Both the position numbers and the translations under genes were made by a program. The notes beneath the pieces are model-generated. The model was not told the DNA's origin, ran no database searches, and saw only the letters and a list, made by a program, of their open reading frames with translations. DNA of 64,000 nt from contig JAIXWQ010000009.1 of the NCBI GenBank assembly GCA_027491195.1, positions 248,001-312,000 of the forward strand. The letters run 5' to 3'. Origin of the DNA: Cytophagaceae bacterium (GTDB lineage Bacteria; Bacteroidota; Bacteroidia; Cytophagales; Spirosomataceae). Positions 35,563 to 37,092 of the stretch are shown in pieces (the first letter of the stretch is position 1; every line of letters begins with the position of its first letter).

Positions 35563-36189
35563 ATGAAAGCAGCCATCATCAAACAGTATTTTCCTTCCAT
35601 CACCGAGCAGCAACTAGCTCAATTCGAGCAATTGTTTCCCCTTTATGCGGAGTGGAACGAGAAGATCAATGTCATCTCTCGCAAGGATATTGAAAATTTG
35701 ATGCTGCACCACGTCCTACACTCTTTAGCAATCGCCAAATTCATCGATTTCAAACCCGGCACCGAAATCCTTGACGTAGGCACCGGCGGCGGCTTCCCAG
35801 GTATTCCCTTAGCAATTCTATTCCCCGAAGTGAATTTCCACCTTGTTGATAGCATCGGGAAAAAGATCAAAGTCGTTCAAGGCGTCGCTGATGCCCTTGG
35901 GCTAAAGAATGTACAAGCCACTCATGGTCGTGCAGAGGACGTCGATGGCGAATTTGAGTTTGTGGTTTCTCGCGCGGTGACCCGCCTATTGCCATTCTTT
36001 GGCTGGGTGAAGAACAAGATCAGTTTGAACAGCTACCATGATTTGCAGAATGGCCTTCTTTGCCTAAAAGGGGGAGATTTACAAGAGGAATTGCAGGAAT
36101 TCGGCAGAAAGCATAAGGTGTATCATCTTTCCAAAAGCTTTAAGGAGGACTTCTTTGAGACGAAGAAGTTGGTGCACGTTGCGCTGTAG
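35563..36189 (+). CDS. rsmG: 16S rRNA (guanine-527-N7)-methyltransferase
   Basis: A 208-residue class I methyltransferase. EWNEKINVISRKDIENLMLHHVLHSL is the family N-terminus, ILDVGTGGGFPGIPLAI the SAM-binding loop, and VVSRAVTRLLPFFGW the catalytic-side motif. It methylates G527 of 16S rRNA with S-adenosylmethionine. Length is normal. It is the last gene of the rng-TPR-rsmG operon. Its stop codon abuts the hairpin array whose last left-side unit is the terminator. Confidence 0.95.
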   Translation: MKAAIIKQYFPSITEQQLAQFEQLFPLYAEWNEKINVISRKDIENLMLHHVLHSLAIAKFIDFKPGTEILDVGTGGGFPGIPLAILFPEVNFHLVDSIGKKIKVVQGVADALGLKNVQATHGRAEDVDGEFEFVVSRAVTRLLPFFGWVKNKISLNSYHDLQNGLLCLKGGDLQEELQEFGRKHKVYHLSKSFKEDFFETKKLVHVAL

Positions 36190-36198
36190 GCGCTGTCA

Positions 36199-36280
36199 CG
36201 ACTGCGTCGCTTAGTCGTCACTGCGTGACTTAGTCGCCTACGGCTTAGTCGCGACTACGTCGCTTGGTCGCCCTGCGGGC
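36199..36280 (+). repeat. Hairpin array, left half (TTAGTC linkers)
   Basis: Five consecutive small hairpins separated by the 6-base linker TTAGTC (one TTGGTC). Stems at 36199-36209 (CGAC-TGC-GTCG), 36217-36229 (GTCAC-TGC-GTGAC), 36236-36244 (GCC-TAC-GGC), 36251-36263 (GCGAC-TAC-GTCGC) and 36270-36280 (GCCC-TGC-GGGC). Stem sequences differ but each pairs perfectly, and every loop is TNC, which is GNA on the other strand. It lies directly after rsmG. Confidence 0.85.
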
Positions 36281-36285
36281 TTTTT
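36270..36285 (+). terminator. Terminator of the rng-rsmG operon, formed by the last left-array hairpin
   Basis: GCCCTGCGGGC followed by five T. The stem is only 4 bp with a triloop, so strength is uncertain alone, but four similar hairpins precede it. Confidence 0.55.
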
Positions 36286-36319
36286 CTCAAGATGAATAAC
36301 TTTGAACTTTACTTCTTTC

Positions 36320-36503
36320 GACTAAGTCCGAAGGACGACTAAGATGCGAAGCAACGACTAAATCGCGTAGCGATGACTAAGCGACGCAGTCGCGGCTAAG
36401 ATGCGAAGCAACGACTAAACGACAAAGTCGTAACTAAGCTGTAGGCGACTAAGCGACGCAGTCGCGACTAAGTCACGCAGTGACGGCTTGCTGCGCAGCA
36501 GCC
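36320..36503 (-). repeat. Hairpin array, right half (GACTAA linkers), inverted relative to the left half
   Basis: Nine units with linker GACTAA (variants GGCTAA, AACTAA), each followed by a 9-13 base hairpin with loop GAA, GTA, GCA or AAA: 36326-36336, 36343-36355, 36362-36374, 36381-36393, 36400-36412, 36419-36431, 36438-36446, 36453-36465, 36472-36484. Most pair perfectly with different stems; TGCGAAGCA occurs twice inside a mismatched outer pair. A tenth larger palindrome GGCTTGCTGCGCAGCAGCC (36485-36503) follows. The last unit and this palindrome lie in the 3' coding end of the LytTR gene. Confidence 0.85.
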
Positions 36504-36835
36504 TTAAACAAATCCTTCAGCGGCTTAATCTGTCTACGAGAAATGGTCACTTGGTGATTATTCAATAAGCGGATACTTTTGTGGATGTTGAAATCAATCG
36601 CTTGGATGGAATTCATATTGATGATCGCCGACTTCGATGGACGAATGAATCCGCGTTCCAATAGATAAGATTCAAAGTATTTTAATGTACGGCAAGAGAT
36701 AATCTTGCGACCATCGAATAAATAGAATTTGGAGTAATTACCCACTCCTTCTATTCGCATGATGTCTTTAATACAAATGGTCTGGTCACCTAAAGATAGG
36801 GTGCAGCTTTGTTCAGTTTTAATGGTTACCGTCAT
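36473..36835 (-). CDS. LytTR-type DNA-binding regulator without receiver domain
   Basis: A 120-residue protein made of a LytTR domain alone. Family blocks are IKDIMRIEGVGNYSKFYLFDGRKII, TLKYFESYLLERGFIRPSKSAIINMNSIQAID and the C-terminal VTISRRQIKPLKDLF. It lacks the response-regulator receiver, so it is either constitutively active or controlled by level or a partner. The last 10 residues (KAAAQQAVTA) are written by the hairpin array that runs into the gene, including the stop codon. It has its own -7 box. The target is unknown. Confidence 0.88.
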   Translation of the reverse strand: MTVTIKTEQSCTLSLGDQTICIKDIMRIEGVGNYSKFYLFDGRKIISCRTLKYFESYLLERGFIRPSKSAIINMNSIQAIDFNIHKSIRLLNNHQVTISRRQIKPLKDLFKAAAQQAVTA

Positions 36836-36857
36836 AATATAGAACAGGTTAGTGACA

Positions 36858-36865
36858 CAAATCTA
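36858..36865 (-). promoter_or_regulatory. -7 box of the LytTR gene
   Basis: Read leftward it is TAGATTTG, a perfect TAnnTTTG, 22 bases before the ATG. A TTTG lies 15 bases upstream, closer than the usual 19. Confidence 0.5.
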
Positions 36866-37092
36866 CGGCTGCTAGTCCGGCAAATCAGTAATAATTAGGT
36901 TATTTGCGTTATTGACTATTTTTTAACGTAGTTCATTGATTAACCGGTAGATAAATGATAGGTTACATATATTTTTCATCTATAATGTCCTTAATAATTC
37001 GGTAACATAGGATATGAAACTAGTCTTTCACGTAGTATTCGGCGCGGGACTTATACATATTTTCCTTATTTTCGAATACTAAATTTTAAACT

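Follow-up and report, generated by a model that had tools for sequence, protein, structure and literature searches.

An intergenic repeat family of tandem triloop hairpins with covarying stems in one branch of Aquirufa

The two inverted hairpin arrays that lie between rsmG and lytTR, at positions 36199-36503 of the window (the whole 64-kb stretch of DNA that was analysed), are one member of a genome-wide repeat family found in one branch of Aquirufa, a group of freshwater bacteria. The stems of its 13- and 9-base hairpins covary, while the linker, the C-G closing pair and the loop are largely kept. By the features tested, the arrays are a DNA repeat family that is conserved in structure and is not of the REP/RAYT kind, and any function is putative. 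We give a nearly even chance to the reading that they are branch-specific intergenic repeats, in which tandem DNA mini-hairpin modules fill gene junctions as inward-pointing inverted halves and the hairpin is conserved as a DNA structure. Each module would combine TTAGTC with a hairpin of 9, 11 or 13 bases that in most cases carries a C-GNA-G tip when read on the GACTAA strand.

The rsmG/lytTR junction and the distribution of the arrays

Both inverted halves were confirmed by direct reading of the junction (Table 1). The best hairpin chain scored 25 (21 for the left half alone). Over 1000 dinucleotide shuffles the region averaged 6.4 and never exceeded 17, so the two inverted halves of triloop hairpins described in the sequence-only reading are indeed present. 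A chain scan of the window that was blind to the linker returned two chains, which are the two halves, and none after shuffling in blocks of three. The left half, in the TTAGTC orientation, has five hairpins (36199-36280), all with perfectly paired stems. The right half, in the GACTAA orientation, has nine (36326 to 36484), of which six are perfect and three have one mismatch (36343 and 36400, both GATGC/GCAAC, and 36438, GCT/GGC); 11 of the 14 stems in the window are thus perfect. Read on the GACTAA strand, 13 of the 14 loops fit GNA, the exception being AAA. The six-base linker had been called constant, which mostly holds (TTAGTC three times in the left half and GACTAA seven times in the right half) but not strictly, as TTGGTC, GGCTAA and AACTAA occur once each. 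The left half terminates in GCCCTGCGGGC-TTTTTCTC, a terminator-like end that is unique among the 86 halves of the orientation set, and the reading frame of lytTR ends within the outermost right-hand hairpin. No Rfam family matched positions 35900-36900 of the window at gathering score (best E 0.26, 21 bits against 150).

Table 1. Features of the rsmG/lytTR junction (positions in the window)
Feature	Position	Strand	Basis
rsmG (PF02527 GidB), convergent left neighbour	35563..36189	+	ORF and domain match
Hairpin CGAC-TGC-GTCG, left-half unit 1	36199..36209	+	read directly and chain scan
Linker TTAGTC	36211..36216	+	read directly
Hairpin GTCAC-TGC-GTGAC	36217..36229	+	read directly
Linker TTAGTC	36230..36235	+	read directly
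Hairpin GCC-TAC-GGC	36236..36244	+	read directly
Linker TTAGTC	36245..36250	+	read directly
Hairpin GCGAC-TAC-GTCGC	36251..36263	+	read directly
Variant linker TTGGTC	36264..36269	+	read directly
Hairpin GCCC-TGC-GGGC (36270-36280), then TTTTTCTC; terminator-like, sole T-run end in 86 halves	36270..36288	+	
AT-rich centre between halves, without the conserved tail or palindrome of the orthologous G019, G007 and G008 junctions	36289..36319	none	
Linker GACTAA (TTAGTC on -) and hairpin GTCC-GAA-GGAC	36320..36336	-	read directly
Linker and hairpin GATGC-GAA-GCAAC, one mismatch	36337..36355	-	read directly
Linker and hairpin ATCGC-GTA-GCGAT	36356..36374	-	read directly
Linker and hairpin GCGAC-GCA-GTCGC	36375..36393	-	read directly
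Variant linker GGCTAA and hairpin GATGC-GAA-GCAAC, one mismatch	36394..36412	-	read directly
Linker and hairpin ACGAC-AAA-GTCGT	36413..36431	-	read directly
Variant linker AACTAA and hairpin GCT-GTA-GGC, one T.G pair	36432..36446	-	read directly
Linker and hairpin GCGAC-GCA-GTCGC	36447..36465	-	read directly
Linker and hairpin GTCAC-GCA-GTGAC; lytTR-frame stop codon inside	36466..36484	-	read directly
LytTR-domain gene (PF04397), convergent right neighbour; array sequence codes its end	36473..36835	-	ORF and domain match
Palindrome GCTGCGCAGC, outermost element, within the lytTR frame	36490..36499	-	read directly

Across genomes, arrays were counted as strict linker pairs (TTAGTC-N9-15-TTAGTC), with the reversed linker as control. 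The source genome has 89 such pairs (49 + 40) against 11 (7 + 4) for the control. Ten of 38 Aquirufa genomes have 26-105 pairs and the other 28 have 0-4 (control 2-17 in those 28); further arrays, for which the sequence-only reading had proposed a search of this genome and its relatives, are therefore present in both. The same 10 genomes encode RsmG proteins 89-100% identical to that of the window, and no best match from the other 28 exceeds 77% identity; G004 has an additional partial match of 72 residues at 83%. The published Aquirufa tree, in the available part of the paper, has two branches (PMC9163014), of which the antheringensis one is probably the branch with arrays. A stricter two-unit pattern, which detects the exact linker with CTNCG tips only, returned 42 stretches from one genome per species (84,980 species). 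By title they belong to Cytophagaceae MAGs, to Aquirufa antheringensis and to a MAG labelled Spirosoma fluviale; the last has its arrays at the same positions as Aquirufa G008. A viral collection searched with one two-unit pattern gave no match, and a viral origin was rejected on this result. For arrays with other linkers, a chain scan of low sensitivity (12, 10 and 12 chains in the array loci of G000, G007 and G019 against 84 halves counted there) gave no chain in 400 kb of two array-less Aquirufa genomes, none in 200 kb of G028 and G033, and one GC-rich chain, by eye not of the array kind, in 400 kb of seven other genomes.

Some sequences at these loci resemble or accompany the arrays. NTAGTC repeated with one purine as the only spacer, like a hairpin-less array, occurs at L068 296-340, L075 1455-1467 and L068 1795. 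A short array lies within an ORF carrying AcrB-type pump and outer-membrane efflux domains (L059 1056-1098, L170 1522-1551), and this ORF is open in two species. Repeats of period 7-8 (CTTTGAA, ACCATTY, CTCTATA, AAAGCAT) crowd the gaps of array loci (e.g., L175, L176 4540-4750 and L065) and are rare in the samples taken from the other branch (400 kb) and from other genera (600 kb).

Stem pairing, covariation and turnover of units

Strict units were collected under ten genome or MAG labels (n=489), and 459 of them have hairpins of 9, 11 or 13 bases (91, 48 and 320, respectively). Their stems are perfect in 85 of 91, 42 of 48 and 281 of 320 units, against means of 32.7, 30.0 and 49.5 when the 3' arms were dealt among the units. 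Because the search pattern for the MAG stretches, which contribute 229 of the 489 units, required CTNCG, their loops and closing pairs are counted with a bias; the other 260 units, from G000, G007, G019 and G047 with loci picked by linker alone, form the fair set. By the dealt-arm test, which ignores the relatedness of units, 146 of the 167 13-base units in the fair set are perfect (dealt mean 23.9, maximum 35), as are 48 of the 51 9-base units (mean 19.0, maximum 27). The 11-base units, mostly of one stem, give no evidence of covariation (20 of 25 perfect, dealt mean 18.7, maximum 21). Of the 167 13-base units in this set, 159 have C-G as their closing pair and all begin with a purine. The loops of its 214 perfect units are TNC in 170 (that is, GNA on the GACTAA strand), GNA of the opposite polarity in 6 and other in 38; the GNA-type loops earlier noted on the GACTAA strand of the window are thus the prevailing kind. 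Where six bases separate two hairpins they are TTAGTC in 173 of 239 cases, a count in which nested hairpins enter repeatedly, and GTAGTC is an occasional variant only, e.g., where arrays start.

In the promoter hairpins of phage N4, a C-G closing pair with a 5' G and a 3' A in the loop is needed for extrusion and stability, according to the available part of the source (PMC4496689), and the array units have this C-GNA-G feature at the frequencies just given. The conserved object would be a DNA hairpin, formed in a single or underwound strand and more likely in the GNA strand. Wobble mismatches were suggestive of a strand at first (23 on the GACTAA strand against 10 in all units, p 0.035; 20 against 10 when distinct, p 0.10), but the bias is gone in loci chosen irrespective of the loop (11 against 7, p 0.48), and the strand assignment therefore draws on the loop only. 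Folding energies were uninformative in this respect, as DNA and RNA energies alike fail to separate the strands.

Orthologous loci were compared between species in two ways, in both of which some alignments will join non-orthologous units and units recur across pairwise comparisons, so that the counts are not independent. With at most one mismatch and a C-G closing pair demanded, 122 units were aligned and 48 were identical; stem pairs had changed on both sides and stayed paired in 52 cases and had changed on one side in 22, with 69 loop changes, the zero for pairs changed on both sides and unpaired being partly built in. Without the pairing demand and with exact linkers, 68 units were aligned and 24 were identical; 26 stem pairs had changed on both sides and stayed paired, 16 had changed on one side, and none had changed on both sides and become unpaired. 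Where two units of this second comparison differ at just one stem pair, the change is compensated in 7 cases and one-sided in 12; a clean compensated case is GTCCC/GGGAC versus GCCCC/GGGGC with an identical loop. Stems therefore covary between orthologous sites, and uncompensated intermediates are also common. The sequence-only reading had staked itself on covariation in orthologous loci, which the 26 two-sided against 16 one-sided changes bear out, and these changes together with the 13-base stems of the fair set agree with its view that structure rather than sequence is kept. Pairing would be maintained by two forces acting jointly, selection for the hairpin and correction templated by the hairpin itself (template switching), a process that can preserve stem pairing as far as the available part of a published account goes (PMC8794818).

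Most of the sites compared are common to several species, and their unit content turns over. By flanking DNA, 15 of the 20 G000 loci compared match an array locus of another species, a finding that speaks neither for nor against the spreading parasite considered earlier. At shared sites the unit lists differ between species and module blocks are duplicated. The rsmG/lytTR junction has arrays with different stems in G019, G007 and G008, and degenerate pieces only in G014. Identical linkers would allow modules to be gained and lost through slippage or recombination, and dispersal to the current sites may be ancestral, by a putative machinery.

This fast turnover, the other low-complexity repeat families in the same gaps and the lack of SbcD across the genus would also fit a neutral by-product of replication errors, in which slippage and template switching expand the arrays and perfect the hairpins in the absence of SbcCD, with neither function nor mobility. 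We consider this quite unlikely, because it leaves unexplained the constancy of linker and loop across species, the loop-to-linker polarity and the orientation to gene edges, and because the 28 other Aquirufa genomes also lack SbcD yet have no strong arrays.

Gene edges, transcription and the linked tail

Orientation was analysed in 86 halves (G000, G007 and G019), 84 of them with an upstream edge, using simple ORF calls and units with at most one mismatch. The TTAGTC-first end lies at a median of 26.5 nt from the upstream gene edge, and the other end at 158 nt from the downstream edge. Of the 84 halves, 56 have a gene 3' end as their nearest upstream edge and lie in sense to it (39 within 60 nt), and 28 have a gene start there (17 within 60 nt). 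Neighbouring halves in one gap are arranged as +- in 14 cases, ++ in 5, -- in 3 and -+ in none. Both halves of the window do point TTAGTC-first from the gene that transcribes into them, as had been claimed, but the general rule is TTAGTC-first from the nearer edge, be it stop or start. Array gaps are convergent in 26, tandem in 26 and divergent in 6 cases (n=58), against 24, 100 and 50 for array-free gaps of at least 40 nt (n=174; convergent enrichment p 4e-6). When array-free gaps of at least 150 nt are taken (14, 26 and 13; n=53), the enrichment is marginal (p 0.05). Array placement follows gene edges more than transcription, and the convergent enrichment leaves room for a transcription-linked role.

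An RNA element, in which hairpin arrays in the 3'-UTR block exonucleases or terminate transcription from either direction, would account for the 56 halves in sense orientation behind gene 3' ends, for the enrichment of convergent junctions and for the T-run at the end of the window's left half. We hold it to be unlikely, since a gene start lies upstream of the 28 remaining halves, a T-run follows the hairpin in 1 of 86 halves (the window's own) and 1 of 339 units (only units with at most one mismatch were counted), some arrays sit beyond or around terminator-like hairpins (judged by eye; sets D, G and K), and at gene 3' ends the C-GNA-G tip of the GACTAA strand is on the non-mRNA strand. The gene starts and the T-run count also tell against the 3'-end RNA element that the sequence-only reading had offered, when it is taken as a general explanation. 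A role as intrinsic terminators was rejected on the T-run count and on the arrays beyond terminator-like hairpins.

Array loci also carry a conserved tail of ~80-110 bp that ends in TTGACA-N5-TGTCAA (consensus GTGTGAAATAAACNTCGAGGTACTCAGAGGGCTTTTCAGGTATTGACA, from L063 1578-1679, L163 1363-1464 and 27 others aligned). The tail follows many arrays and also occurs without them (L063 2528, L165 670, L180 551 and L192 527). In several loci it is followed by its own reverse complement, giving, by eye, the order array-tail-palindrome-tail-array, and several dispersed copies have a common end, ATCGCTTCGCGAT-TTAGTC, plus the tail. Its profile matched 41 times in 202 kb of array loci (three genomes) and once in 435 kb of other G007 stretches, with no match in 400 kb of G017 and G020, in 600 kb of other genera or in the window. 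Searched across the genus, one tail sequence matched every array genome except G023 (9 of 10); outside them it matched once, in G001, and the remaining 27 genomes gave nothing. No covariation was found in the tail, which has six invariant pairs only. Rfam gave no match to five tail loci either, and the earlier remark that no family could be named for the hairpins is in line with these empty Rfam results.

The palindrome TTGACAN5TGTCAA has 15 copies each in G000, G007 and G019, 13 in G008, and 0-1 in six genomes of the other branch. The window junction has no tail, though G019, G007 and G008 carry the palindrome at the same junction. On the closed G007 chromosome, 13 of the 15 copies lie within 221 kb of parS (1.236 Mb), in a span of G007:C1 1015817-1453038 (binomial 1.2e-8, with the interval chosen post hoc; KS on distance 1.2e-7). 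parS served as the origin marker, and the GC skew, which alone is noisy, changes sign there. The palindrome regions in other genomes are at 185-622 kb of G019:C2 and on G000:C3 and C1. The G007 arrays are less concentrated, with 12 of 23 within 240 kb of parS (p 4e-4) after 7 of 30 matches or clusters had been dropped by eye as lacking array hairpins, and 14 of 30 (p 6e-4) with these restored. Along G007:C1 1.48-2.48 Mb, no array was kept on the right replichore beyond ~235 kb from parS, where three matches without array hairpins were dropped, and several lie on the left replichore.

The sequence matS is a chromosome domain mark. By analogy with it or with parS, the arrays might form the periphery, coded in structure, of a palindromic element that organises the chromosome in the Aquirufa antheringensis branch. 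Its core would be TTGACAN5TGTCAA in the conserved tail, a new origin-domain site concentrated within ~220 kb to each side of parS, with extruding C-GNA-G hairpins as the adjustable part. We regard this as very unlikely for the arrays. The linked, origin-centred palindrome may point to an undescribed domain organiser in Bacteroidota.

Candidate machinery and known systems

A point against the favoured DNA-hairpin reading is that the conservation of linker and loop suggests a recognising factor, and none was found. Y1_Tnp, in a search that could miss a very distant enzyme, had no match at E<=0.001 in the 8 array genomes covered (all but G045 and G047), and 18 of 39 sampled genomes match, with strong genes in the relatives G015, G017, G020 and G024. 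Within 1.5 kb of 20 Y1 loci of relatives there are no tandem TTAGTC hairpin arrays and only two isolated matches. The TnpA-REP type transposase that the earlier reading had suggested looking for was thus not found in the 8 array genomes, and the 20 Y1 loci of relatives have no tandem array beside them.

These results also bear on the idea that the arrays are the relic of a REP- or IS200-like mobile family, whose hairpin and linker modules an HUH enzyme, since lost or too distant to detect, would have mobilised in single-stranded form. A fixed linker with variable paired stems would fit an enzyme that reads hairpin shape and linker, REP doublets resemble inward inverted halves, dispersed copies have the common end plus tail, and the Y1_Tnp genes of the four relatives are strong. 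Given the empty Y1 searches in array genomes and around the relatives' Y1 loci, the missing GTAG/CGTC tag and the same orientation of the tandem units, such a relic is improbable in our view. REP/RAYT itself was rejected on the Y1 search, the flank test and the absent tag.

The 16 proteins scanned, mostly array neighbours, include SMC_N (RecF-like), ribosomal L3 and L9, ABC ATPase, SelR and other families, with two proteins without family, and from these the neighbours look ordinary. In G000, G007 and G019, arrays flank a gene for a four-helix-bundle protein of the 23S_rRNA_IVP family (L066 1701-2069). This gene was rejected as a mobility factor because it occurs in all 10 array genomes but also in 8 of the 28 others. 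SbcD (TIGR00619) was found in none of the 38 Aquirufa genomes (controls matched in 13 of 14). It was above cut-off in 80 of the 118 genomes of the order sample and in all 8 genomes of the same family but another genus that appear in the table, from which 7 genomes without a match are missing. Loss of SbcCD was rejected as the sole cause, because the loss is genus-wide and the arrays are confined to one branch. The absence of SbcD may be permissive, making palindromes easier to keep. Any benefit of the arrays to the cell is putative.

REP, BIME and REPIN sequences with RAYT are likewise many-copy, short, intergenic palindromic repeats, often as inverted pairs. REP/RAYT repeats have an unpaired GTAG (or CGTC) tag at one end and a palindrome of 20-40 bp, as described in the available part of the source (PMC3733652). 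In contrast, the Aquirufa units have no such tag and are triloop hairpins of 9, 11 or 13 bases, in same-orientation tandem with a 6-base TTAGTC linker and covarying 13- and 9-base stems, and the Y1 results set them apart as well. The vRNAP promoter hairpins of phage N4 have a three-base loop and a short stem. Like the array units, they are closed by a C-G pair, begin and end the loop with G and A, leave stem identity partly free and have a strand-specific loop, within the available part of the published work (PMC4496689). The N4 hairpins are single phage promoters, and the Aquirufa hairpins form arrays. Repetitive and double hairpin elements of mitochondria are also short intergenic hairpins, tandem and dispersed, without an assigned enzyme; in the sponge elements, as far as the available text tells, stems are conserved and loops vary, whereas the Aquirufa repeats are bacterial, with varying stems and a largely kept loop and linker (PMC2800124). 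TAACTGA heptamer repeats are tandem short units at gene edges, in some Bacteroidetes too, but they are direct repeats of another unit and lack the TTAGTC hairpin module in the part of the report available (PMC4679880). No description of the present arrays was found in the literature, including Aquirufa papers, in a search that had subscription papers mostly outside its scope and does not establish absence from print. In the Aquirufa arrays, a bacterial repeat family, stem sequences drift under compensation and the hairpin shape, the C-GNA-G tip and the six-base linker largely persist. The closely related natural genomes that carry them allow one to ask whether chromosomal DNA hairpins are kept by selection or by hairpin-templated mutation.
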